DNA from: Lachnospiraceae bacterium
Lineage (GTDB): Bacteria > Bacillota > Clostridia > Lachnospirales > Lachnospiraceae
DNA length: 43,887 nucleotides
Assembly: GCA_017626325.1 (NCBI GenBank)
Contig: JAGAIZ010000029.1
Coordinates: 1 to 43,887 of the forward strand
Direction: 5' to 3'
In this document: one piece after another, positions 3,431 through 43,826 of the stretch
How the letters are laid out: each line of letters begins with the position of its first letter
Position numbering within the stretch: position 1 is the first letter of the stretch
The notes under the pieces: generated by a model
Seen by the model: the letters and a program-made list of their open reading frames with translations, nothing else
Databases searched by the model: none
Told to the model about the DNA's origin: nothing
Translations under genes and position numbers: made by a program

Positions 3431-4099
3431 TTATATTTGTATATCCAATGAACCGCCCGATTTCTTCAAGGTCGATTCCACTGATTTCCTCGTAATACCG
3501 TCCAATGCTCCGGATTTAATGGGCTTTCCGATTTCCCACTTGGGATCAGCTTTCCTTGCAGCATCCAAAAATGCCTGCCTATATGCACGTTCATACTGCT
3601 GCATAGTATATCCCGCTGCTAATCGTTCTTTTTTCTGTACCTTGCGATACATATTTGTATATACATCTGAGCGTTTTGTCGTATCTCCATTTAGGACGCC
3701 ATTTTCCTACAGAAATTCCTTTTTCGTTTGTTCAAACATTTCATCTTTGCTGCTTTCTGGAATGGAAATAATACGTTTTTGACTACTTGCATTTTCATCT
3801 GTCAGCAAAAGACCTGCTAATCCTGTCGTTGGATCAATGTAATCTCCATCTTTGTCGTAACTTTTCATCAAATTTTTAATACTCTGGATATTTGTGTACA
3901 TCGCCCCATTTGCATTTGACATCATCTGCTTTATTGCAGCCTTATATTGGGCGCTGTTTGTATCAATACCCGCTGCCTTTAACTGCGACTGTATAGAACT
4001 GCTGTTTAACTGTGACAGCCGGAAACTGCCAGTCGGATTCGTCTTTGGCGTTCCAAACATACTCTGAAATAAAAAACCATAATCTGTAATTTTAGACAT
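3431..4099 (-). pseudogene. DUF3879-like protein interrupted by an in-frame TAG
   Basis: The frame opens with MSKITDYGFLFQSMFG behind a good AGGAGG and runs 130 codons to KKEFL. A TAG at 3707-3709 follows, and the same frame continues without another stop for 91 codons: ENGVLNGDTTKRSDVYTNMYRKVQ, then RLAAGYTMQQYERAYRQAFLDAARKADP. The continuation reads as the natural C-terminal half of the same protein, so one CAG-to-TAG change (Gln to stop) is the simplest explanation. From memory the whole resembles the DUF3879 family (about 220 residues), function unknown. Without suppression only the first 130 residues would be made. A restart at the ATG at 3652 has no obvious ribosome binding site. Confidence 0.75.
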
Positions 4100-5182: not shown

Positions 5183-6589
5183 TTATTTAGTTTTCACTTC
5201 CCCCTGCTGTAACATGACTGTCACATGGAAAACCTCCCCTTTCACCTTTATATTCACCCTTCCAAAATACCTCTCAGCTATGTCCCGTACATTTTCAAGG
5301 CCAATCCCATGTTCCGTGACGATATCCGGCAGAATACTCTGTTTTGTTGTAATCGGGAGTGAACCGTTCTTCTTCACAGGAACAACCCCATCAAAGCTGT
5401 TTTCCACGTCAAGCAACAGGAACTGCTTCTTCCGCTTTAAAGAAAGACGAATAAAGCCTTTCCCCACTTCCAGTTTTTCACAGGCTTCTATGGCATTGTC
5501 CAGAAGGTTGTTCAGTATGATTCCCATATCAAACACAGGGATTTCCCCTCCATACTGAAAATCTGAATCAAACCGGATTCCCGCTTTCTCCGCCCTGCGG
5601 CATTTATCGTTGATGATGACATCCGTGACCGCATTACCTGTCACATACTTATATTCCAGCTCCTGCATGGTCTCATCCATCCGCCGTACATAGTCCTCTA
5701 TCTCCCCATATTCCCCGGCTCCTGCCAGCCCTTTGATGTTCGCCATATGGTTCTTCATCTCATGGCGCACTTTGCGGATGCTTCCATAAAAATTCTCCGC
5801 TTCCTCCAGTCGCTTTTTCATGGCCTTGACCTGCTGTTCCTCCACGAAATGTTTCTGCCTTTCGGAAAGCAGGACGCGGTACCTCTGCCAAAAATAAATC
5901 AGCGCGGCTTCTCCCATAAATATAAGAACTGCAATCAGCGGCATCTTCCATAACAAATCTGGTTTCTCATCAAACAGAATGAAAAAACTGTCATCTATCT
6001 TTACAGTACTCAGCTCAATGATAATTTTTGTAGTCATACTCCCCACAAAATTAAGTACAGAAAGCAGAATAATGTCCTGCCATGCCATTACGGCTTCCCC
6101 TTTTATGAGCCTGTGAAAAATAACGGTCATTGTCACAAATAATGCGGTATAAAAGAAAGCGAATACAGTCTGCCCAACTGCCATACAGTGGTACACCTGC
6201 TGCATATAGTTTTCCTGTAATGCATCAAGTTCTTTCATCATCACATTTGTTACTTCCACATAGATACTGTTTGCAATCAAAAAACTCAGGCTATGGAGAT
6301 TATAAAATGCAAGCATTACAAAAACCGCTTTGCCAATATTTTTTTTATAATGTGCTACGCTATATCCCAATACAGCAAAAGCCGATATAGCATACCTTAC
6401 CCAAGCAGTACATGGCAGAAACCCTATCCCTACATTTACAAGAATAAACAGAACTGCGGCAATGCCATCCTTTTTTCCTTTTTTCACGCTGAAAACTGAT
6501 GTCCATAAAACAAGGAACATTATGGCTTGTATGATGATCTTCCATATATCCAAGATGCTATTCACTATTTCAAACGCTGACTGGCTCAT
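5183..6589 (-). CDS. Membrane sensor histidine kinase, GHKL domain (AgrC-like)
   Basis: 468 residues. The N-terminal ~235 residues contain about six or seven hydrophobic segments (for example 15-35, 43-60, 65-80, 86-108, 140-160, 170-190, 215-235). A linker helix follows, then the catalytic part: phosphoacceptor H276 in VRHEMKNHMANIKGL, the N-box around NNLLDNAIEAC (360-370), and a G-box HGIGLENV near the end. This is the HPK10 pattern of AgrC-type kinases that sense peptides or membrane signals. It overlaps the response regulator by ATGA (6586-6589) and has its own GGAGGAAAG site, so the pair is one system. No agrB or agrD-like peptide gene is nearby, so the signal is unknown. Confidence 0.93.
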   Translation of the reverse strand: MSQSAFEIVNSILDIWKIIIQAIMFLVLWTSVFSVKKGKKDGIAAVLFILVNVGIGFLPCTAWVRYAISAFAVLGYSVAHYKKNIGKAVFVMLAFYNLHSLSFLIANSIYVEVTNVMMKELDALQENYMQQVYHCMAVGQTVFAFFYTALFVTMTVIFHRLIKGEAVMAWQDIILLSVLNFVGSMTTKIIIELSTVKIDDSFFILFDEKPDLLWKMPLIAVLIFMGEAALIYFWQRYRVLLSERQKHFVEEQQVKAMKKRLEEAENFYGSIRKVRHEMKNHMANIKGLAGAGEYGEIEDYVRRMDETMQELEYKYVTGNAVTDVIINDKCRRAEKAGIRFDSDFQYGGEIPVFDMGIILNNLLDNAIEACEKLEVGKGFIRLSLKRKKQFLLLDVENSFDGVVPVKKNGSLPITTKQSILPDIVTEHGIGLENVRDIAERYFGRVNIKVKGEVFHVTVMLQQGEVKTK

Positions 6590-7317
6590 AGGCTTTCCTC
6601 CGAAATGTAATCCATGTATGCCTGCACAAAGCCGTCATACTTATACCTTGAAAGCAGCAGCTTATCTCCATTCGCCATCCTTACCTCCGTCCTGTCATAC
6701 CCCTCCACATGGAAAAGGTTGATAAGATATCCCCGGTGGATGCGGTAAAACTGTCCTGCCAGTTCCTCCTCCAAGTCCCCGATCTTCGCATAATATTCTA
6801 TATTTCCGCTTTTCAGGTACAGGACGATATTGTGATTCCGGCTTTCAATGTAATAAATGTCATTGAGCGGTATGGCCTTTCCCTCGCCGCCATACTGGAC
6901 CACAAGTTTTTTCTTCCGCTGCTCTGCCTCCGATACGATCTGCCCCACCGCCCGGCAAAACACCTCTGCAAATTTCTGTTCGTCCACGGGCTTTACCAGA
7001 TACTGGAACGCCCCTACGTCAAAGGCATCATAAACGTATTTTTCATATCCTGTAACAAAAATGATGATGGGCTGTTTCTGCGCCTCCATGCCCCGGATAT
7101 GCCTTGCCAGCCCCATGCCGTCCATGCCTGTGCCGGAGCCGCCCATCTCTATATCCAGAAATATTAGGTCATGCTCTTTACCATCTGATAAGTACGCATC
7201 AGTAGAGGCATATTCCGTAATACTGCATTCCCTGCCCTGCTTTTTAATAAGTGATACAAGATAAGACCTTATGTTTTTTTCATCATCACACACCGCAACT
7301 TTTACCGTATCTGCCAC
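6586..7317 (-). CDS. LytTR-family response regulator
   Basis: 243 residues: receiver domain about 1-125 with acidic pocket D11-D12, phosphoacceptor D55 in LIFLDIEM and K109 in LVKPVD; LytTR DNA-binding domain about 140-240 (KAIPLNDIYYIESRNHNIVLYLKSG...RIHRGYLINLFHVEGYDR). It should be phosphorylated by the kinase encoded immediately downstream and bind paired direct repeats in promoters. The start is a GTG (7317) that overlaps the best Shine-Dalgarno-like run (GGAGGTG), so the exact start is unsure; a stop codon four codons upstream (TGA AGA CTG GAG GTG) excludes a much longer form. First gene of the presumed operon reaching to 2307. Confidence 0.92.
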   Translation of the reverse strand: MADTVKVAVCDDEKNIRSYLVSLIKKQGRECSITEYASTDAYLSDGKEHDLIFLDIEMGGSGTGMDGMGLARHIRGMEAQKQPIIIFVTGYEKYVYDAFDVGAFQYLVKPVDEQKFAEVFCRAVGQIVSEAEQRKKKLVVQYGGEGKAIPLNDIYYIESRNHNIVLYLKSGNIEYYAKIGDLEEELAGQFYRIHRGYLINLFHVEGYDRTEVRMANGDKLLLSRYKYDGFVQAYMDYISEESL

Positions 7318-7545
7318 CTCCAGTCTTCAACTAACTTATCGGAAAAAGAAGGACGATTTCTAACGTCTACTTCGTGAATGGTTAATCTGGCTACGTGAAT
7401 CGCAGATTTTACTATTTTTGATAATATAGTCTGCCTATCCCGCCACTTGCATATTACCTCTAAGTTCCCAACTTTCCAAGTAATTTCCGTTATCATGCCG
7501 CCCGGCCTGCCTGGCAGAAAGGCAACGTCTTCGCCTTATGCTGAC

Positions 7546-9197: not shown

Positions 9198-9371
9198 TCA
9201 TTCCATCTCCTTAAACGTGCCATCCATTCCTCCCACAAGGCTCCACTGGCGCTGCATATAGGATTTCAGATTTTCCATGCTTTGCTGATATGCTTCACAA
9301 GCTATTTGGGGATTATCAAAATGTTCCATAATCGCACAGGCGGCACAATACCCGCTTTGAATGTACCACCC
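9198..9371 (-). pseudogene. C-terminal fragment of a FAD-dependent oxidoreductase
   Basis: The minus strand is open for 57 codons from a TAA at 9372-9374 to a TGA at 9198. The peptide (SGYCAACAIMEHFDNPQ..., AYQQSMENLKSYMQRQWSLVGGM...) matches what is expected at the end of geranylgeranyl-reductase-like flavoproteins, where an ESGY/SGY..A.AI helix follows the FAD-binding GEGI segment. The N-terminal part of such a protein is present at 13307-13789 on the same strand, so the two are probably halves of one broken gene. No start codon or ribosome binding site is present. The family assignment of this short piece is inference. Confidence 0.5.
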
Positions 9372-9426: not shown

Positions 9427-10002
9427 TTAATTATCATAATTTACATCATATTTTGAAATAAATCCTTCTTGCTCTTTTGGGATTTCATTTTCAATATAAT
9501 CCATATACATTTCTTTCTGACTTTCATCTCTATATTCTATATCACCAAAAAACTCCTCTAAAATCAACTCCCCATCAGACTGTCCAAAAGCCATAAATAT
9601 ATATGTCTTTCCCTCCTGTGGGATATCTCTTGTATTCTCAATACGGTCTGAGCGAGGGTATAATAATGTACCATTACTTAAATACCCTCCATGCCGATAA
9701 CATTCTATATTCTTAGTTAATTCACCTTTCAAATTTTCTTCAACTGTAATTGCATATCGGCTATAAGTATCCATGTTGTTCGAGGTGTTGTAATCCACTG
9801 CATTGTCAAGAACTTCATCAACAGTTCCAATAAAAATATAATCTACTTGCCCCACCGTCTCATACATATTTGTTTCGTCATATACCATCGTGAGGTGATA
9901 ACATTCCATTTCTCCATTCCACTCAATAACCTTTTGACTAGAGCAAGCTGACAAAAAAAGAATACAGATAAGCATAAGGGCGATTTTCATTTTTATTTTC
10001 AT
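9427..10002 (-). CDS. Putative lipoprotein (191 aa)
   Basis: Start at 10002 behind GGAGG; an open extension to 10113 is upstream promoter sequence. The signal is MKIKMKIALMLICILFLSAC with lipobox LSAC, Cys20. The mature domain has alternating beta-strand-like segments: VDYIFIGTVDEVL, YSRYAITVEENLKGEL, IECYRHGGYL, GKTYIFMAFGQSDGE. This resembles secreted single-domain proteins in which an IxVxxxLKG strand precedes a GG and a P-x-x-GK-x-Y-I-F motif; no function is known to me. It lies inside the island between the two flavoprotein fragments and has the module-A promoter in front. Confidence 0.75.
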   Translation of the reverse strand: MKIKMKIALMLICILFLSACSSQKVIEWNGEMECYHLTMVYDETNMYETVGQVDYIFIGTVDEVLDNAVDYNTSNNMDTYSRYAITVEENLKGELTKNIECYRHGGYLSNGTLLYPRSDRIENTRDIPQEGKTYIFMAFGQSDGELILEEFFGDIEYRDESQKEMYMDYIENEIPKEQEGFISKYDVNYDN

Positions 10003-10041
10003 ATTTTTCCTCCATATTTCACATAAAATGATATTAGGAAC

Positions 10042-10125
10042 ATTATACCATAGAAATTTTTCTTTTTTGTCCGATGGCACAAAATGACTATTTTTCGGGA
10101 ATGCAAAGCACAAAAGGACTACGCA
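10042..10125 (-). promoter_or_regulatory. Promoter module A (related to module B at 13865)
   Basis: Reading the minus strand, a TATAAT (10042-10047) lies 40 bases before the lipoprotein start, with no good -35 at 17 bp. The upstream ~75 bases closely match the sequence before the flavoprotein gene at 13865-13940: GTGCCATC, then an A-rich run, ATTTTCTRTGG and TAYAAT, as well as the outer CTATTTTYYNGGAATG block. The shared block without a strong -35 suggests activator-dependent control or a common origin as a mobile or replication element. Confidence 0.55.
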
Positions 10126-10175
10126 AGCAGCCCTTTTCCATTATTTCATTCTGTGTTTATCATTTTTCTGTACAC

Positions 10176-10270
10176 TATCACGAAAACTGCTTATACAATC
10201 ACGGAAACCATTATATTATCACGAAAACTTATCGGCAGTTTTCCGTGTTTGTATCCGAGTTTCTGTGATA
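10176..10270. repeat. Iteron-like array A
   Basis: Three direct copies of a 12-mer (TATCACGAAAAC at 10176 and 10217, AATCACGGAAAC at 10197) are spaced 21 and 20 bases. Two inverted copies follow, GTTTTCCGTG at 10238-10247 and GTTTCTGTGATA at 10259-10270. Direct copies first and inverted copies last is the same order as in array B at 14009. Periodic 20-bp spacing fits binding of a multimeric protein on one face of the helix, as in plasmid Rep iterons. Confidence 0.6.
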
Positions 10271-10278
10271 ATATCCGA

Positions 10279-10516
10279 CTTTTGCCTACGAGTATAAACT
10301 ATCAGGCAAAAGAGCCCCAGAACAGAAGTTCACCCACTCCCAAATGTAAAAAACCACTTAAAAGCACACAAAAATAATGTAACTTTTAGACCTATGTAGT
10401 GCCAAGAATGCCGTATTTACGGGCTTTGTGGGGTTTCCGCAACCTTATCCACCAGAAGCTAAGACACCTTTGTATGCTAGAATTATTATTCCCAATTTAT
10501 GTCAAACAACTTCATA
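10279..10516. other. Intergenic stretch with inverted repeat
   Basis: CTTTTGCCT (10279-10287) and AGGCAAAAG (10304-10312) are a perfect 9-bp inverted repeat just beyond iteron array A. The left arm resembles the inverted iteron of array B (CTTTTGCCAAAT). No gene was recognised between here and the holin stop at 10517. Confidence 0.45.
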
Positions 10517-10921
10517 CTACTGCTTTCCGTCTTTAAGTTGCTCCAGTATATCCTTTAATTTCTGTGGTATTGGCAAACCCAGTGTTGCTACATTTTCCAT
10601 AATTATAATCCCTTCATTAGAAAGATAAAAGAGAATGACTACTGTACGAACCATATTTCCATTCTGAATAATCAGTGCATCAATCACATTCCCCACTGCC
10701 ACTAAGAAAAAGATAGATACTTTCTTTGCTATCCCACAGAAACCAATCTCATTGGATATTTTTTTATTCAAAATTGAAATCAGTATTTGAGTCATATACT
10801 CCACTACCATAAATAAAAGCAAAGCAGACAATAAACCATCCCACCCTCCAAGCACAACTTCAACTATACCTCTTTCCACTACAAACAATATCCGCTGTTC
10901 CATAAATAAAAACATTTTCAT
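10517..10921 (-). CDS. Phage holin family protein (TcdE/Cph1-type)
   Basis: 134 residues from an ATG at 10921 with a GGGGA 8 bases upstream; an open extension to 10987 is not supported. Hydrophobic segments at about 20-48, 68-86 and 92-110 surround the family pattern GGWDGLLSALLLFMVVEYMTQIL...KKISNEIGFCGIAKKV...FYLSNEGIIIMENVATLGLPIPQKLKDILEQL. Holins of this family open the membrane for phage endolysins or export large toxins. No endolysin or phage structural gene is nearby, so this is an orphan holin, perhaps a prophage relic or recruited for export or lysis of the host. Confidence 0.88.
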   Translation of the reverse strand: MKMFLFMEQRILFVVERGIVEVVLGGWDGLLSALLLFMVVEYMTQILISILNKKISNEIGFCGIAKKVSIFFLVAVGNVIDALIIQNGNMVRTVVILFYLSNEGIIIMENVATLGLPIPQKLKDILEQLKDGKQ

Positions 10922-11178
10922 TCTCGTATCCCCACTTCTCTTTATTATTTTTGCTGTATTGCTTATCATGATGAATTGTATCCTCATGATGGTATTATTG
11001 TATCAAGACTCTCTACTTGAGTCGTTACTATTTGAATCAACATTCGAAATTTAGAGTTGCTTCATTAAGCACCTCTGTACAAGTCTTATAAATACTGCTT
11101 TTGCAGATAATAAAGTATTTGAAATTCTGAAAATTAAATATAAAAAACCACCATGCTACCATAAGCAGTCATGATGGT

Positions 11179-11574
11179 CTATATTATCTCAGAGAGTTCT
11201 TCCTGATAGCCCCTATACATCGCTATTACACTTCTGGCAAAACTCTGCCTTGCCGTCGGACTCAATTTGGTGAGATTAATATTCAACGCCTGCATCCAAT
11301 CCAGTTCAGGTTCGCTGACCACTTTACCAAGCGACGGTCCCACCTTATCTTTCAAAAGATCTACTAAATCAACATCCAAAGCATCTGCCACCCGCATCAA
11401 TGTCTCCAGCGATGGCTTTTGTGCTCCATTTTCGTAACGGGAGATTGCGGATTTGCCGCTTCCAACACGATTAGCCAATTCTGTCTGTGAAATACCTGTC
11501 GCATTCCTAGCCATGCGAATATTGCTTCCGATTGCTCTATACTTTTCGCTGTAATCGTTTGCAAAACTATCCAT
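11179..11574 (-). CDS. XRE-family transcriptional regulator
   Basis: 131 residues with a Cro/C1 helix-turn-helix at about 14-72 (IGSNIRMARNATGISQTELANRVGSGKSAISRYENGAQKPSLETLMRVADALDVDLVDLL). The C-terminal ~55 residues (LDWMQALNINLTKLSPTARQSFARSVIAMYRGYQEELSEI) are a short helical tail, probably for dimerisation. The start follows GGAGAG by about 9 bases. It is divergent from the 379-residue gene at 11981. The 406 bases between them hold a 20-bp repeat array and a 22-bp palindrome, so it is the natural candidate to control that promoter and its own. Confidence 0.9.
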   Translation of the reverse strand: MDSFANDYSEKYRAIGSNIRMARNATGISQTELANRVGSGKSAISRYENGAQKPSLETLMRVADALDVDLVDLLKDKVGPSLGKVVSEPELDWMQALNINLTKLSPTARQSFARSVIAMYRGYQEELSEII

Positions 11575-11725
11575 CCGCTTTCTCTCTCCTTTCTTTCGTA
11601 TTTTCTATTCCCTATGCTTACACAAATGTAAACGTTTATAATCATTTTACATTTCCTCTTAATCTACATTTCTCAATCTACTAATACTCTACCACAAAAA
11701 AAGTCAACGAGGTTTTCATCATGCT

Positions 11726-11800
11726 ATCCAATTTATTCTGACAATATCCAATTTGTTCTGATAATATCCAATCTGTTATAGCAATATTCAACATCTTCTC
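11726..11800. repeat. Tandem array of 20-bp repeats
   Basis: Three head-to-tail units of exactly 20 bp (11726-11745, 11746-11765, 11766-11785) share ATCCAATYTRTT at the start and end in AAT; a fourth, poor copy (ATTCAAC...) follows. ATCCAATTTGTTCTGATAAT is the middle unit. They lie between the divergent regulator and the 379-residue gene. The even two-turn period fits cooperative binding of a repressor. Confidence 0.7.
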
Positions 11801-11846
11801 TCCTTTTAATCACCACGTTCCGTGAACATCTTGAATACTTTATTTT

Positions 11847-11909
11847 ATCAACAGAATATTCTGTTGATTTCAACAAATTATTTACATTTGTATTTTAATA
11901 GTGTATAGT
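11847..11909 (+). promoter_or_regulatory. Promoter of the 379-residue gene with a 22-bp perfect palindrome
   Basis: A -35 TTTACA (11881-11886), a 17-bp spacer and a -10 TATAGT (11904-11909) make a good sigma-A promoter about 70 bases before the start codon. Twelve bases upstream of the -35 is a perfect 22-bp palindrome (11847-11868; half-site ATCAACAGAAT). It is a likely operator or activator site. It does not match the Gram-positive LexA box. The opposite promoter region also contains TTTACATTTGT (minus strand, about 11624-11634). Confidence 0.7.
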
Positions 11910-11980
11910 AAATGATGAATAGATGTATATATGTATTCAATTTTTAATAATAGATTTTGTTTTGAAAGGTGGTGGTTGCA

Positions 11981-13120
11981 TTGCAGCAAAATACTCAAAA
12001 TTTCATGCTAAATTTTGCGACTCTGTTCCAATGCTCCATCAAACCGCTCAAATCTAAAAACCAAAGAGAAGCCGTGAATGCTTTGTTAATTGAACCAGGG
12101 GCAGAAAACATCTCAGATGCCGCTAGTTCCAATTACACGACTGGAAAGCGCGTTGTTCCCGATGACTATCGTAGCACTCTTGCCGCCCTCTCAGATGAGG
12201 AACTTACTGAACGCCTTACCTATATTGGCATCTTAGAATACGATAGAATGTGCGTGGCTCTCCGACGTCTTGTGGAATGCGCTAGAATTCCCTCTAGTCA
12301 ACGCAAACGTTTGATTGATACCTACCAAAATTCTGGACAAATAGAGTTCATTAAAAGCACTGTTCGGGCTGCTGCTGATTGCAAAGAAATTGTGCAACTG
12401 ACCAATAGCGATATCAATCACCTTGCAGAATTTGCCAATGTGGAATCCTCCGCAGAGCCGATGAATAACAAACCCACACCAGATATTGAAGCAGAAGCAA
12501 CCATAAGCAATCCTACCAGATACCCTCTATTCACACAAAAGTTCGAGGATAAATACAACCACAACTGGATTTCCGAGTATACTCCTCAAAATACAGATAT
12601 AGAAGATCTCCGAAGTAGGGATTTCTTTGGCTCGACCGTTGTCTCAAGTCAGCAAGATCTCAATATGCCCTATGACTTTCCCAAACTCCTTTGCTTTCTG
12701 ACACCTATGGTAAAAGGTAATCCAATAGATGAATTCACAGTTGAGGAGTTTATGGATTGTATGAGCATTAGCATCATTAATAATAAAGTTACAAATGGAA
12801 GCATAGAATGTCTGAAACTCGCTGGTCCTGCGAAAGGCGTGGTTAAATTCATCTCAAGGCTTAATCTGTCAGAAGTATCTGATGTTGCCTTTCTTATGGC
12901 TGGAAAGATCACTAATCGGGATGCTAAGGATATAGAAAATGCCATCCGAACTGCATCTAACAAGAACGTGAACTGTATCCATTCCATGTGGTACGATGAA
13001 GAAATACCTGAGATTGAGCTGACACTTATAACGCATCTATGCCCAGGGAAAGCCAAGCAACAATCCACTTATGAGATTGACGAGGATGGAGTAAAGATAC
13101 CAAAACAGGATAAGGAATAA
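11981..13120 (+). CDS. Uncharacterised protein (379 aa), divergent from XRE regulator
   Basis: TTG at 11981 is preferred as start because AAAGGTGG lies 8 bases before it; GTG at 11969 overlaps that site. The protein is soluble. Residues ~1-140 are helical: NFATLFQCSIKPLKSKNQREAVNALLIEPGAENISDAASSNYTTGKRVVPDDYRSTLAAL..., then SSQRKRLIDTYQNSGQIEFIKSTVRAA. The part up to GKRVVP resembles an N-terminal domain I have seen on varied effector-like proteins, but I cannot name it. Residues ~180-345 form a second, more polar domain (CFLTPMVKGNPIDEFTVEEFMDCMSISIINNK, ISRLNLSEVSDVAFLMAG). The tail is charged. No catalytic motif is visible. Codon use and lower G+C differ from the core genes at 14-43 kb. 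A defence, phage or element-maintenance role is possible but unproven. Confidence 0.75.
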   Translation: MQQNTQNFMLNFATLFQCSIKPLKSKNQREAVNALLIEPGAENISDAASSNYTTGKRVVPDDYRSTLAALSDEELTERLTYIGILEYDRMCVALRRLVECARIPSSQRKRLIDTYQNSGQIEFIKSTVRAAADCKEIVQLTNSDINHLAEFANVESSAEPMNNKPTPDIEAEATISNPTRYPLFTQKFEDKYNHNWISEYTPQNTDIEDLRSRDFFGSTVVSSQQDLNMPYDFPKLLCFLTPMVKGNPIDEFTVEEFMDCMSISIINNKVTNGSIECLKLAGPAKGVVKFISRLNLSEVSDVAFLMAGKITNRDAKDIENAIRTASNKNVNCIHSMWYDEEIPEIELTLITHLCPGKAKQQSTYEIDEDGVKIPKQDKE

Positions 13121-13189
13121 AGATTATTTCTCATAAGAATTTAAATCCGGATAATTAGAAAGAGAAGAATTGATCTCATCATACTATTA

Positions 13190-13322
13190 TATTTTTGAAT
13201 TTAAATGGATCATAAAACCCGAACCACAAAACGATTGAAAAAATATACGAATCAAATCAGAAAGAATATACAAACATCTTTATAGAATATTTTTTATTTG
13301 ACGGCTTTATGATTCAAAAATA
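13190..13322. repeat. Imperfect inverted repeat at the right end of the island
   Basis: TATTTTTGA plus ATCATAAAACC (13190-13198 and 13209-13219, separated by 10 extra bases) matches inverted GGCTTTATGATTCAAAAATA (13303-13322). The right arm ends about 13 bases before the point where the flavoprotein frame is broken. The repeat may mark the end of the inserted segment or a recombination site; the 83 bases between the arms contain no gene. Confidence 0.45.
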
Positions 13323-13789
13323 AGATACAGCACCACTAGGAGAAGTCGGGGATACCTTGCGCTTTCCGTATAATTACTTTCCCCATGCAGGCTGATTTCC
13401 ACAAAACCATCCTTTTCCGTGAAGGAAAGTGCCGCCACACCATCCCTGACCTCTGCGCCACTCACCTTTGCCTTTTTAGCAAGCCACCCGTCAAAATGGC
13501 TGCGCCATACATTCAGCCCCTCTTGCTCAAAACGGTATTCTTTCCCCACGTCATTTGTGAAGATCATTCCCCTGTTCTCTGTCGGAGTACACATGGCAGA
13601 CTCCGGCACATCCTCCCCGAAATAAGTCTTTACAAGTTTCATTGATTTCTTTATCAGAACGCCCGAACAGGACTTATACCTTGGCATTTTGAATTTCTCC
13701 ACCAGAAGAACCTTATAGCCCTTTTCCACTAAGACCTTAGATGCCGTACATCCTGCAAGCCCAGCACCGACCACTACCACATCATACAT
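13307..13789 (-). pseudogene. FAD-dependent oxidoreductase, N-terminal half (geranylgeranyl-reductase-like)
   Basis: The frame starts MYDVVVVGAGLAGCTASKVL with the Rossmann GxGxxG motif and continues LLVEKFKMPRYKSCSGVLIKKS, a typical flavoprotein with the KSCSG segment of the geranylgeranyl reductase / halogenase superfamily. It follows AAAGGAG. After about residue 145 (YTESARY) the sequence turns into PRLLLVVLYLIFES and stops. Full-length relatives are about 370 residues, so roughly 60 percent is missing, including the substrate domain. A probable C-terminal piece lies at 9198-9371. The product would be non-functional. The upstream promoter module B (13865-13940) is intact. Confidence 0.8.
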
Positions 13790-13864
13790 CTCCTTTCCAT
13801 TCTCTCTGTTGTTTCCTATTACTTCTACAGAAATCTGTTCCTGCTAAAGTAAAAATCCCCATTG

Positions 13865-13940
13865 ATTGTACCACAGAAAATTTCTTGTATTTATCGGATG
13901 GCACGAAACGGCTATTTTCTAGGAATGAAAAGCATAAAAC
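13865..13940 (-). promoter_or_regulatory. Promoter module B of the broken flavoprotein gene
   Basis: A TACAAT (13865-13870) on the minus strand lies about 75 bases before the flavoprotein start. Upstream are ATTTTCTGTGG, an A-rich run, GTGCCATC and a CTATTTTCT/GGAATG block that match module A at 10042-10125 almost base for base over about 75 bases. As in module A there is no good -35 hexamer. Confidence 0.55.
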
Positions 13941-14008
13941 GACCAAAAAGAGCCTGCACAGCTCCTTATCATTTTCCCATATTCTTTTTATTACTTTACT
14001 CATATATC

Positions 14009-14076
14009 ATTTGGCGAAACCCTATACATTTCAGCAAAACTATACCTTTCAGCAAAACCCCTGACTTTTGCCAAAT
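14009..14076. repeat. Iteron-like array B
   Basis: ATTTGGCGAAAC (14009-14020) and two copies of TTTCAGCAAAAC (14029-14040, 14047-14058) are direct repeats spaced 20 and 18 bases; the inverted copy CTTTTGCCAAAT follows at 14065-14076. The order and spacing match array A, while the sequence of the unit differs. The remaining gap to 14181 shows no gene. Confidence 0.6.
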
Positions 14077-14181
14077 AGTGTGCTTTTATCCCCAATCGCA
14101 ATGCTGTCAGCCCTATCCCCAAACCACAATAAAAGAGGCCCACCAGTCAATCCGGTGAACCCCTTTATACTCAAAATCCTT

Positions 14182-14436: not shown

Positions 14437-17058
14437 TCATTTATTCTGAATTGCCGCCTGTGCCGCCGCCAATCTCGCAATCGGTACTCTAAACGGTGAG
14501 CAGGAAACATAGGTAAGACCTACCTTGTGGCAGAACTCAACGGAAGACGGATCTCCGCCGTGCTCGCCGCAGATACCAAGCTTGATGTTCGGTCTGGTTG
14601 AACGTCCTTTTTCTGCCGCCATCTGAACAAGCTGTCCTACCCCCTTCTGATCGAGTCTTGCGAACGGATCAGACTCGTAAATCTTATTCTTGTAGTAGTC
14701 GCCTAAGAACTTGCCCGCATCGTCACGGGAGAAGCCGAAGGTCATCTGGGTCAGATCGTTCGTACCGAAGGAGAAGAACTCAGCCTCTTCTGCGATCTCA
14801 TTAGCAAGCAGTGCGGCTCTCGGAATCTCAATCATGGTTCCGATATGATACTGAATATCGGAATTTTTCTCTTTCTTCACCTGTTCCGCTACTTCCACTA
14901 CCACATCTTTGACAAATTTCAGCTCTTTCTTCTCGCCTACGAGCGGAATCATAATCTCAGGTACGATATCGTAGCCTTTCTCATTCTTCACTTCGATAGC
15001 TGCTTCCATAACAGCTCTTGTCTGCATCTTGGCGATTTCAGGGTATGTAACCGCGAGACGACATCCTCTGTGTCCCATCATCGGGTTGAACTCATGCAGG
15101 GAATCGCAGATTTCCTGTACTTCCTCAGCCGTCATCATCATCTCTACAGCCAGATCATCGATATCATCCTTCTCAGTAGGTACGAACTCGTGAAGCGGCG
15201 GGTCTAAGAAACGGATTGTAACCGGTCTTCCCTCCATTACTTCATAGAGTGCCTTGAAGTCGCCCTTCTGGAACGGAATCAACGCATTTAACGCTTTCTC
15301 TCTCTGCTCTAAGGTTCTCGCCAGGATCATCTGACGAATCTTCGGAATTCTGTCAGGATCGAAGAACATATGCTCGGTACGGCAAAGGCCGATTCCCTCT
15401 GCGCCGTATTTAACAGCGTTCGCCGCATCTGCCGGCGTATCCGCATTGGTGCGCACCTGTAAAGTACGGTACTGGTCTGCCCATGCCATGATACGTCCGA
15501 AGTTGCCGCTTACGGTAGCCTCTACCGTCTTAATGTCACCTTTATAAATCTTACCGGTGGAGCCGTCTAAGGAAATATAATCTCCCTCGTGGAATACTTC
15601 GCCGCCTAACTCGAATACTTTATCTTCCTCATTGATCGCGATCTCACCGCAGCCGGATACACATGCCGTACCCATACCACGGGCTACTACTGCCGCATGG
15701 GAGGTCATACCGCCGCGGACTGTCAGAATACCTTCTGCCGCATGCATACCTTCGATATCCTCCGGCGACGTCTCGAGACGTACCAGTACGACTCTCTCGC
15801 CCTTCTCATGAGCGGCCTTTGCTTCCTCAGCGGTAAAGTATACCTTACCTGCCGCCGCACCGGGAGATGCAGGAAGCGCCTGTCCGATCACCTGGCCTGC
15901 TTTCAGAGCGTCGGCATCAAAAGTAGGATGCAGAAGCTGATCCAGGGACTTCGCCTCGATACGAAGTACAGCCTCTTCGGGTGTAATCTTGCCTTCATCT
16001 ACCAGATCGCAGGCGATCTGCAGAGCCGCCGGAGCAGTTCTCTTACCATTACGGGTCTGTAAGAAGAACAGCTTGCCTTCCTCAATCGTAAACTCCATAT
16101 CCTGCATATCACGATAGTGATTCTCTAACTTATTGGCGATCTCCATGAACTGCTTATAGCACTCCGGAAGATCCTCTTCCAGCTTGGTGATCGGCTGAGG
16201 TGTTCTGATGCCTGCTACCACGTCCTCGCCCTGTGCATTAATCAGGTACTCGCCATAGATGCCCTTTGCGCCGGTAGAAGGATTTCTGGTGAACGCAACG
16301 CCCGTGCCGGAGGTTTCTCCCATATTACCAAATACCATCGCCTGTACATTAACGGCGGTACCCCAGTCTCCGGGGATGTCGTTCATACGGCGGTATACGA
16401 TAGCTCTCTCGTTATCCCAGGAACGGAATACGGCTTTGACAGCCTCCATCAACTGTACCCTGGGATCCTGCGGGAATTCTTCTCCCTTATTTTCCTTATA
16501 AATATTCTTAAATCTGACAATGATTTCTTTCAGGTCTTCTGCGGTTAAGTCTGTATCGAATTTAACGCCTTTGCCCTCTTTGATCTCATCCAATATCCTC
16601 TCAAAATAGGATTTGGGAATTTCCATAACAACGTCGGAGAACATCTGGATAAATCTGCGGTAAGAATCATAAGCAAATCTCGGATTACCTGTCTTCTCAG
16701 CAAATCCCTCTACCGCCACGTCTGTCAGACCCAGATTTAAGATGGTATCCATCATACCGGGCATAGAAGCTCTCGCGCCGGAACGAACCGACACCAGAAG
16801 CGGATTCTTCGTATCACCGAATTTCTTACCCTGCTTCTCTTCCAGATTAGCCAGCGCATCAAAAATCTGTCCCTGAATTTCCTCCGAAATCTGTCTGCCA
16901 TTGTTGTAATAATCGGTACAGGCCTCCGTAGTCACGGTAAAGCCCTGTGGAATCGGCAGTCCAAGATTCGTCATCTCCGCCAGATTTGCTCCCTTTCCAC
17001 CAAGGAGATTCCTCATGTCGGCATTGCCTTCTTCAAATAAGTACACCCATTTTGACAT
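14437..17058 (-). CDS. ppdK: Pyruvate, phosphate dikinase
   Basis: 873 residues, the normal length for the clostridial enzyme. It converts pyruvate, ATP and phosphate to PEP, AMP and pyrophosphate and works in both directions in anaerobes. The N-terminal nucleotide-binding domain opens with KWVYLFEEGNADMRNLLGGKGANLAEMTNLGLPIPQGFTVTT. The swivelling phosphohistidine domain has GGMTSHAAVVARGMG (His near residue 455). The C-terminal TIM-barrel pyruvate domain ends with SCSPFRVPIARLAAAQAAI, carrying the catalytic Cys. The start at 17058 follows AAAGGAAGGAAAAAGGG; an open extension of 35 codons upstream is not protein-like for this family. It has its own terminator. A TAAAAT -10-like box about 17190 suggests its own promoter. 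Confidence 0.98.
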   Translation of the reverse strand: MSKWVYLFEEGNADMRNLLGGKGANLAEMTNLGLPIPQGFTVTTEACTDYYNNGRQISEEIQGQIFDALANLEEKQGKKFGDTKNPLLVSVRSGARASMPGMMDTILNLGLTDVAVEGFAEKTGNPRFAYDSYRRFIQMFSDVVMEIPKSYFERILDEIKEGKGVKFDTDLTAEDLKEIIVRFKNIYKENKGEEFPQDPRVQLMEAVKAVFRSWDNERAIVYRRMNDIPGDWGTAVNVQAMVFGNMGETSGTGVAFTRNPSTGAKGIYGEYLINAQGEDVVAGIRTPQPITKLEEDLPECYKQFMEIANKLENHYRDMQDMEFTIEEGKLFFLQTRNGKRTAPAALQIACDLVDEGKITPEEAVLRIEAKSLDQLLHPTFDADALKAGQVIGQALPASPGAAAGKVYFTAEEAKAAHEKGERVVLVRLETSPEDIEGMHAAEGILTVRGGMTSHAAVVARGMGTACVSGCGEIAINEEDKVFELGGEVFHEGDYISLDGSTGKIYKGDIKTVEATVSGNFGRIMAWADQYRTLQVRTNADTPADAANAVKYGAEGIGLCRTEHMFFDPDRIPKIRQMILARTLEQREKALNALIPFQKGDFKALYEVMEGRPVTIRFLDPPLHEFVPTEKDDIDDLAVEMMMTAEEVQEICDSLHEFNPMMGHRGCRLAVTYPEIAKMQTRAVMEAAIEVKNEKGYDIVPEIMIPLVGEKKELKFVKDVVVEVAEQVKKEKNSDIQYHIGTMIEIPRAALLANEIAEEAEFFSFGTNDLTQMTFGFSRDDAGKFLGDYYKNKIYESDPFARLDQKGVGQLVQMAAEKGRSTRPNIKLGICGEHGGDPSSVEFCHKVGLTYVSCSPFRVPIARLAAAQAAIQNK

Positions 17059-17276
17059 AGTTTCCCTTTTTCCTTCCTTTCTACTTTCATCCGTTGCCGG
17101 ACCTTGCTCGTAAGCAGTACTATAAAACGCCATAACTGGTACTTTATGGCATTTTACATGCACATTACTGTGTGCCTTTTTAACATTTTATCATAAGTTC
17201 GGGAATTTAGCACTGATTTTTTCAGAAAAATTACTAAAAAATTTATTTGATTTCATCTTTTTTTAGCCATAATTCA

Positions 17277-43688: not shown

Positions 43689-43755
43689 TCCTGTACAGAA
43701 TAATATTAAATTATCATTCCTTACAAGCGTACACCATAAGGCGCATTAATCGAGT

Positions 43756-43826
43756 AGGAGGCTAACCATTAGTTGATTAGCCGTCCTCTCACACCACCGT
43801 GCGTACGGTTCCGTACACGGCGGTTC
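43756..43826 (-). ncRNA. Group II intron domains V and VI
   Basis: Domain V spans 43792-43826 and starts GAACCGCCGTGTACGG, pairing with CCGTACGCACGGTGGTG in the usual 34-35-nt hairpin with a GGAA-type loop. Domain VI follows (about 43752-43788): GAGAGGACGGCTAA with TTAGCCTCCTACTC, leaving a bulged A at 43755 as the likely branch point, about seven bases from the 3' end. Confidence 0.85.

Follow-up and report, generated by a model that had tools for sequence, protein, structure and literature searches.

The window is a stretch of 43,887 bases that corresponds to contig C9 of the 3.1-Mb draft genome of a Lachnospiraceae bacterium. Read along the minus strand, its features follow one another as ppdK, the terminator-like element T1, iteron array B, core B, a truncated FAD gene, an oppositely oriented gene of 383 aa, an HTH gene, a holin of phage type, iteron array A, core A, a lipoprotein-like gene, the relic of an FAD gene end, another HTH gene, a 163-aa ORF, and finally the LytTR and GHKL genes. 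The ppdK gene (14437..17163, minus strand) encodes pyruvate phosphate dikinase, with the Pfam domains PPDK_N and PEP-utilizers, and is the putative attachment gene of the elements described below. Its att-like 3′ end (CGGCGGCACAGGCGGC; 14453..14468, minus strand) encodes the terminal residues ..AAAQAAIQNK* and is of the same kind as the end that starts 62 of 64 elements elsewhere.

The first of two related modules adjoins ppdK. T1 (14132..14166, minus strand), found by a terminator scan in the interval between ppdK and array B, consists of a 15-pair stem with a T-rich tail. Array B (14001..14082, minus strand) is of type II (GTTTTGCTGAAA / GTTTCGCCAAAT) and contains three direct units (14001-14058), spaced by 18 and 20 bp, and a single inverted one (14065-14082). 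It is separated from core B by a terminator-like hairpin, T2 (13945..13967, minus strand), which was read from the sequence, is absent from the terminator scan and has homologues at other loci. Core B (13865..13945, minus strand) is a predicted LytTR-type promoter with half-sites at 13921-13927 and 13899-13905, 22 bp apart, and a -10 element at 13865-13870. Downstream of it lies a truncated FAD oxidoreductase gene (13307..13789, minus strand) of 160 aa, compared with 343-349 aa in intact relatives.

The second module follows the same plan. Array A (10168..10311, minus strand) is built of type I units (GTTTTCGTGATA; GTTTYCGTGATAATAT), with three direct copies at 10168-10228, spaced by 20 and 21 bp, and inverted copies at 10238-10311; on this side, similarity to locus L061 runs on to ~10468. 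No ppdK-like end lies beside array A in the window. A second T2 hairpin (10112..10137, minus strand), likewise read from the sequence, absent from the terminator scan and with homologues at other loci, occupies the interval between array A and core A. The predicted LytTR-type promoter of core A (10042..10125, minus strand) has half-sites at 10097-10103 and 10075-10081, again 22 bp apart, and the -10 sequence TATAAT at 10042-10047. It serves a lipoprotein-like gene (9427..10002, minus strand), which is named from its N-terminus only and has no match in Pfam or NCBIfam. Next to it is a relic (9198..9356, minus strand) of a second FAD oxidoreductase gene; it preserves the 3′ end, with 92% identity to the end of the gene at locus L079.

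Further along are a LytTR response regulator (6586..7317, minus strand; PF04397 and PF00072) and a GHKL histidine kinase (5183..6589, minus strand; PF14501). The promoter region of this operon carries its own direct repeats, CGATTCACG / CCATTCACG (7373..7402, minus strand), 21 bp apart and matching at 8 of 9 positions; shuffles also reached 8, and for this single promoter the support is recurrence in its class. As an observation in its own right, the regulator matches phrog_8810 at 203 bits, and its best phage record, 64% identical, is an unannotated fecal contig.

The first-pass annotation had described the two cores as matching almost base for base. Both lie on the minus strand and align with few gaps, but 61 of 78 positions are identical (~78%, one gap; counted from the alignment over positions 22-99 of the first sequence), so the likeness is real and the wording too strong. 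Its account of the arrays holds: each has three direct units and inverted units besides, the spacing falls within 18-21 bp, and the 12-mers differ, being type I in A and type II-like in B. With these corrections, the observation of two modules is confirmed.

Putative promoter cores and iteron arrays of this kind recur in gut Lachnospiraceae. With 7-8 candidates scored per genome and an E-value of 0.01, a query with module A (10030-10290) found a match in 28 of 98 genomes and one with module B (13850-14090) in 34 of 98; hits beyond the genus score low and resemble noise. A BLAST search of the window's own genome with core A recovered core A alone. In the collection of named genomes, a strict core pattern matched 72 stretches, whose records are labelled Lachnospiraceae, other Clostridia or just bacteria; a core profile distinguished 89 cores in the loci examined. 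The earlier proviso, that a core confined to this genome would make shared function unlikely, does not apply, since both core and iteron spacing recur elsewhere. An array lies within 300 bp upstream of 40 of the 89 cores (37 of 83 among those with at least 400 bp upstream), and 49 of the 89 have none within that distance. A unit finder returned 153 arrays of at least three units in 133 sources, versus one in a single mononucleotide shuffle of the same 1.27 Mb; because the sources overlap and were chosen for their likeness to the window, these counts indicate that the arrays are real repeats and do not give a genome-wide frequency. A larger locus set held 125 distinct arrays, or 103 after merging and orienting.

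Viral contigs contain no match to the core pattern; one array pattern was found there in none and another in three. In two of these three, for which longer sequence exists, the array sits beside serine recombinases and an amidase gene. An origin of the modules from a plasmid or phage was considered and dropped, as window positions 10030-10480 have no match in plasmid and phage collections at E 1e-5.

By layout, the core looks like a LytTR-type promoter. Its half-sites, of the CATTCCC and CGTGCCA types, are direct, and among 81 cores their spacing is 22 bp in 57, 21 bp in two, 27 bp in one and -9 bp in one, with 20 not called (57 of 61 called cores at 22 bp). A -10 match is present in 45 of 50 called cores (of 82), in all 45 at 34-36 bp after the second half-site. 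Direct half-sites 20-23 bp apart, just upstream of the -35/-10 region, are what is expected of a LytTR promoter, and binding of a LytTR protein at the core would fit the half-sites, the 22-bp spacing and the position of the -10. Direct repeats in LytTR systems are described as mostly separated by 12 bp and lying just upstream of the -35 (PMC6193735). The HdrR/BrsR and AgrA-family promoters treated there have two direct repeats at two-turn spacing just upstream of the promoter, in common with the cores (PMC6193735); here, in contrast, a single promoter family serves several gene types. Genes downstream of cores include an FAD oxidoreductase with an OmpR-type two-component system, a metallo-beta-lactamase-fold protein, LytTR itself and, in the window, the lipoprotein-like gene. 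Inspection by eye also revealed a leader inverted repeat (of the TTACTTTAGCAG..CTGCCGAAGTAA type) after the -10 in many of 30 cores, core A not being among them.

The same layout precedes many LytTR genes, and several classes have their own direct repeats spaced by 20-22 bp: CATTCACG for the 243-aa class of the window, and ATTCACGCT, TTTCGTTCC and GTTTCGTGC for others, although several of the LytTR promoters in the repeat list score no better than their own shuffles. The iterons are unlike these repeats. It had been proposed earlier that the modules represent a family of regulators with co-evolved operators. Linked regulators are indeed present (LytTR at 6586-7317 and GHKL at 5183-6589), as are LytTR classes with their own repeats; the iterons do not appear to be those operators, and the half-sites in the core are similar in kind to the repeats of those classes.

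The arrays themselves are mosaics of units of ~20 bp, the fullest single form being ><<<<<<<>>>, which occurs in both type I and type II (L063, L074). Of 77 genomes examined in the genus, 28 have a type I unit and 12 a type II unit, with chance accounting for some of the lone hits; a search pattern of two units failed to pick up type I. Array type and core sequence are inherited together. For 43 of 43 cores the nearest neighbour carries an array of the same type, a value reached in none of 2000 label shuffles, with relatedness uncorrected and with 36 cores lacking a typed array and one type III core left out. This co-inheritance supports the earlier view of one module with diverged iterons. 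On COE1 C16, for example at 145451-147739 and 248018-250338 (L199, L204), one or two unrelated genes are bracketed by two portions of an array, a layout that would suit a cargo slot inside the array.

One reading of the iterons is that they are operators of the linked LytTR regulator, or of another cassette regulator, which would set core activity from upstream. The ~20-bp spacing suits LytTR proteins, the arrays lie upstream of regulated promoters and in several cases near LytTR genes, and array and core are co-inherited. However, several LytTR classes have different repeats of their own by their promoters, and LytTR proteins that are 91% identical follow a type I array in one case (L060) and a type II array in the other (L065). 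A terminator-like hairpin with a T run, usually seen by eye between array and core, would separate such operators from the promoter. Moreover, of 76 arrays flanked by a gene on each side (counting ORFs from 150 aa upwards, with 16 arrays left unoriented), 13 face a convergent downstream gene, within 250 bp in 12 of these. As operators of the linked LytTR protein the iterons were dropped on the strength of the separate promoter repeats and of the two array types upstream of 91%-identical proteins, and the broader version is very unlikely. The iterons are an element separate from the core promoter.

A structured RNA would account for the largely complementary central < > pairs and for the excess of G-T over A-C mispairs (73 versus 45 in 69 distinct pairs). 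This excess, however, stems from one position (37 versus 14, against 36 versus 31 elsewhere), which is not Watson-Crick in 51 of the 69, and the array regions of the window have no Rfam match at gathering thresholds. The unit's fifth base varies regardless of its dyad partner (not Watson-Crick in 51 of 69 distinct pairs), a pattern that favours DNA half-sites for a protein over an RNA structure. An RNA hairpin was rejected on these grounds, and an RNA role of any kind is highly improbable. We infer that the iterons do not serve as operators for the linked LytTR protein and do not form an RNA structure.

What lies upstream of the arrays points to the nature of the larger unit. A conserved stretch there, which contains no long frame, was recognised as the 3′ end of ppdK. 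The motif CAGGCGGC..GCCATAG selected 64 elements, of which 62 encode QAAI..stop in the ppdK frame; the five ppdK genes in the set end alike. The ppdK-like end is where the element joins its left flank, and at least three such flanks are unrelated to one another. A large serine recombinase on the same strand lies within 2.5 kb of 22 of the 43 attachment ends with enough sequence, compared with 38 recombinase places in 1.79 Mb; none lies within 2.5 kb of the other 21. The one recombinase scanned has PF00239 and PF07508, and PF07508 has no match on the window's contig. A recombinase beside the attachment end (22 of 43) and an attachment site within a host gene (62 of 64) are the marks of a serine-recombinase integrative element.

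The units are arranged in series. In COE1, where 40 of 62 candidates were scored, hits reaching 200 bits number 11 on C16 (257 kb), all on one strand, and three on C14, all on the ppdK strand just beyond ppdK. In A4, all four hits on C34 share one strand. The ppdK genes of these genomes are on C14 (COE1) and C40 (A4), contigs other than C16 and C34 with their unit series. Together, the COE1 and A4 stretches contain clusters of 15 LytTR-family, 14 serine-recombinase and 12 GHKL ORFs, fragments included. In strain 28-4 the array abuts the ppdK end, and in Eubacterium plexicaudatum ASF492 it lies 13 kb beyond, with amidase and recombinase genes before it. Far from its ppdK (0.68 Mb), ASF492 also has an attachment end, an array and LytTR together at two places, ~4.13 and 4.94 Mb; another four hits are weak and show no attachment end, and two of them include an array. 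Many of these contexts are draft genomes or metagenome bins. Separately, COE1 C16 (L201:9915-19644) carries DISARM-like defence genes, with matches to DrmB and DrmA, a weak one to DrmE, and a methyltransferase.

The first-pass annotation had also suggested replication-initiator sites of an integrative element. The integrative element is borne out by the ppdK-like attachment ends, the serine recombinases and the serial units; the initiator is not, as no Rep was recognised among the proteins scanned, which are part of the genes. The search for a linked Rep or regulator gene yielded a regulator pair, LytTR and GHKL. An array serving as the replication or transfer origin of an excised cassette, bound by Rep or relaxase, would be in keeping with iteron-like units in both orientations that adjoin the attachment end and, in a circle, presumably the recombinase. 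Against this, none of the seven PF03432 relaxases of COE1 is on C16 or C14 (one family, part of the island genes), and the scanned proteins include no recognised Rep, so that an origin is quite unlikely. Both earlier ideas are partly supported: there is an integrative element, and there are regulators that have operators of their own, but the iterons could not be linked to either as its sites.

A survey of ppdK ends in the genus covered 62 loci (L222-L283), 10 without a readable end and 13 with less than 400 bp. The end reads AAAQAAI in 50 of 52 loci, followed by a differing tail, giving 30 distinct ends in 52. Of the 39 ends followed by 400 bp of sequence, four score positive in the array test, which indicates that the array comes with the element and is not native to ppdK; three loci that fail it (L224, L229, L278) have parts of the element by eye. 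Across the survey, many unrelated sequences follow ppdK and its last codons vary. The gene is an apparent hot spot for several mobile elements, beyond the array-bearing one.

An alternative that dispenses with mobility regards the array as a BIME-like mosaic repeat at the 3′ ends of transcription units, with sites for gyrase or nucleoid proteins, spread by gene conversion. It agrees with the alternating orientation within a mosaic, with unit types mixed within arrays and with the position of arrays at the 3′ end of the preceding gene, which runs in the same direction in 65 of 76 cases. Whole type I units, as read from the sequence, are nevertheless not palindromes, and the distribution in the genus is patchy (28 of 77 and 12 of 77, some by chance) and tied to one mobile family. 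This explanation seems unlikely. BIME and REP elements, in the partial descriptions available, resemble the arrays in their regularly spaced units of alternating orientation in intergenic DNA; the present units differ in being ~20 bp long, non-palindromic in type I and tied to mobile-cassette ends.

The modules are probably the unit boundaries of a family of mobile cassettes that inserts at the 3′ end of ppdK, with a LytTR-type promoter as core. The cassette family, its recurrence, its ppdK-like ends, its link to recombinases and its serial order are documented at the level of sequence. On the transcribed strand, a boundary would consist of a replacement ppdK end and T1 (alternatively, the tail of a different unit upstream), array, T2 and core, and the core would fire into the next operon, of which a lipoprotein-like gene and an FAD oxidoreductase remnant persist in the window. 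The window itself is a decayed case of the ppdK cassette, comprising ppdK, array B, core B, the truncated FAD gene, array A and core A. In genome G046, array A and the LytTR operon are kept, ~80 bp replaces the 2.6 kb that holds core A in the window, and core B and the FAD gene are missing; both differences start right beside an array. Tentatively, a DNA-binding protein with a role in cassette excision or upkeep may use the iterons as half-sites, at the end of the cassette nearest the attachment site. A more speculative model is a ‘cassette chromosome’ of gut Lachnospiraceae at ppdK, in which serial serine-recombinase units would each be capped by an array; the layout of the array would be constant, and the sequence of its units would change from family to family. 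A cassette protein that binds the array might then distinguish the units and determine which of them is released, with LytTR-type signalling governing the adjacent promoter.

Some prophages and integrative elements use the end of a gene as attB. The cassettes resemble them in restoring the gene's 3′ end and, in several units, in having phage lysis genes beside the recombinase, but differ in that units repeat in series with arrays at their boundaries. They have no PF03432 relaxase on C16 or C14 of COE1 that would place them with ICEs or IMEs. The staphylococcal (SCC) and Enterococcus (ECC) cassette chromosomes share a serine recombinase with Ccr-like domains, insertion at a housekeeping gene and variable cargo (PMC6222049). 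Composite SCC islands are also on record, comparable to the serial units here. The target here, however, is ppdK and not the rlmH that defines SCC, and the one recombinase scanned falls far below the cut-off of the NCBIfam Ccr models NF047343, NF047347 and NF047344 (135.2 bits versus 900). Iteron arrays and LytTR promoters at the boundaries are likewise absent from the available part of the SCC/ECC descriptions (PMC6222049). The literature matches listed, mostly from outside subscription journals, include none on a ppdK insertion site or on the iteron arrays.

These features suggest that ppdK is an insertion hot spot shaping large variable islands in common gut bacteria; among the cargo are two-component regulators and genes for phage lysis and for defence (DISARM-like in COE1). 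The promoter and iteron parts, separate yet co-inherited, also pose the testable question of what reads the iterons.

Two minor observations concern other parts of the window. DUF3879 and DUF6033 proteins occur near LytTR-GHKL pairs (window 3707-4099; L064:70-813), in clusters of five ORFs in five loci and seven ORFs in five loci, respectively, and no literature matched either name. At the end of the window, positions 43749-43825 have an Rfam match to a group II intron.
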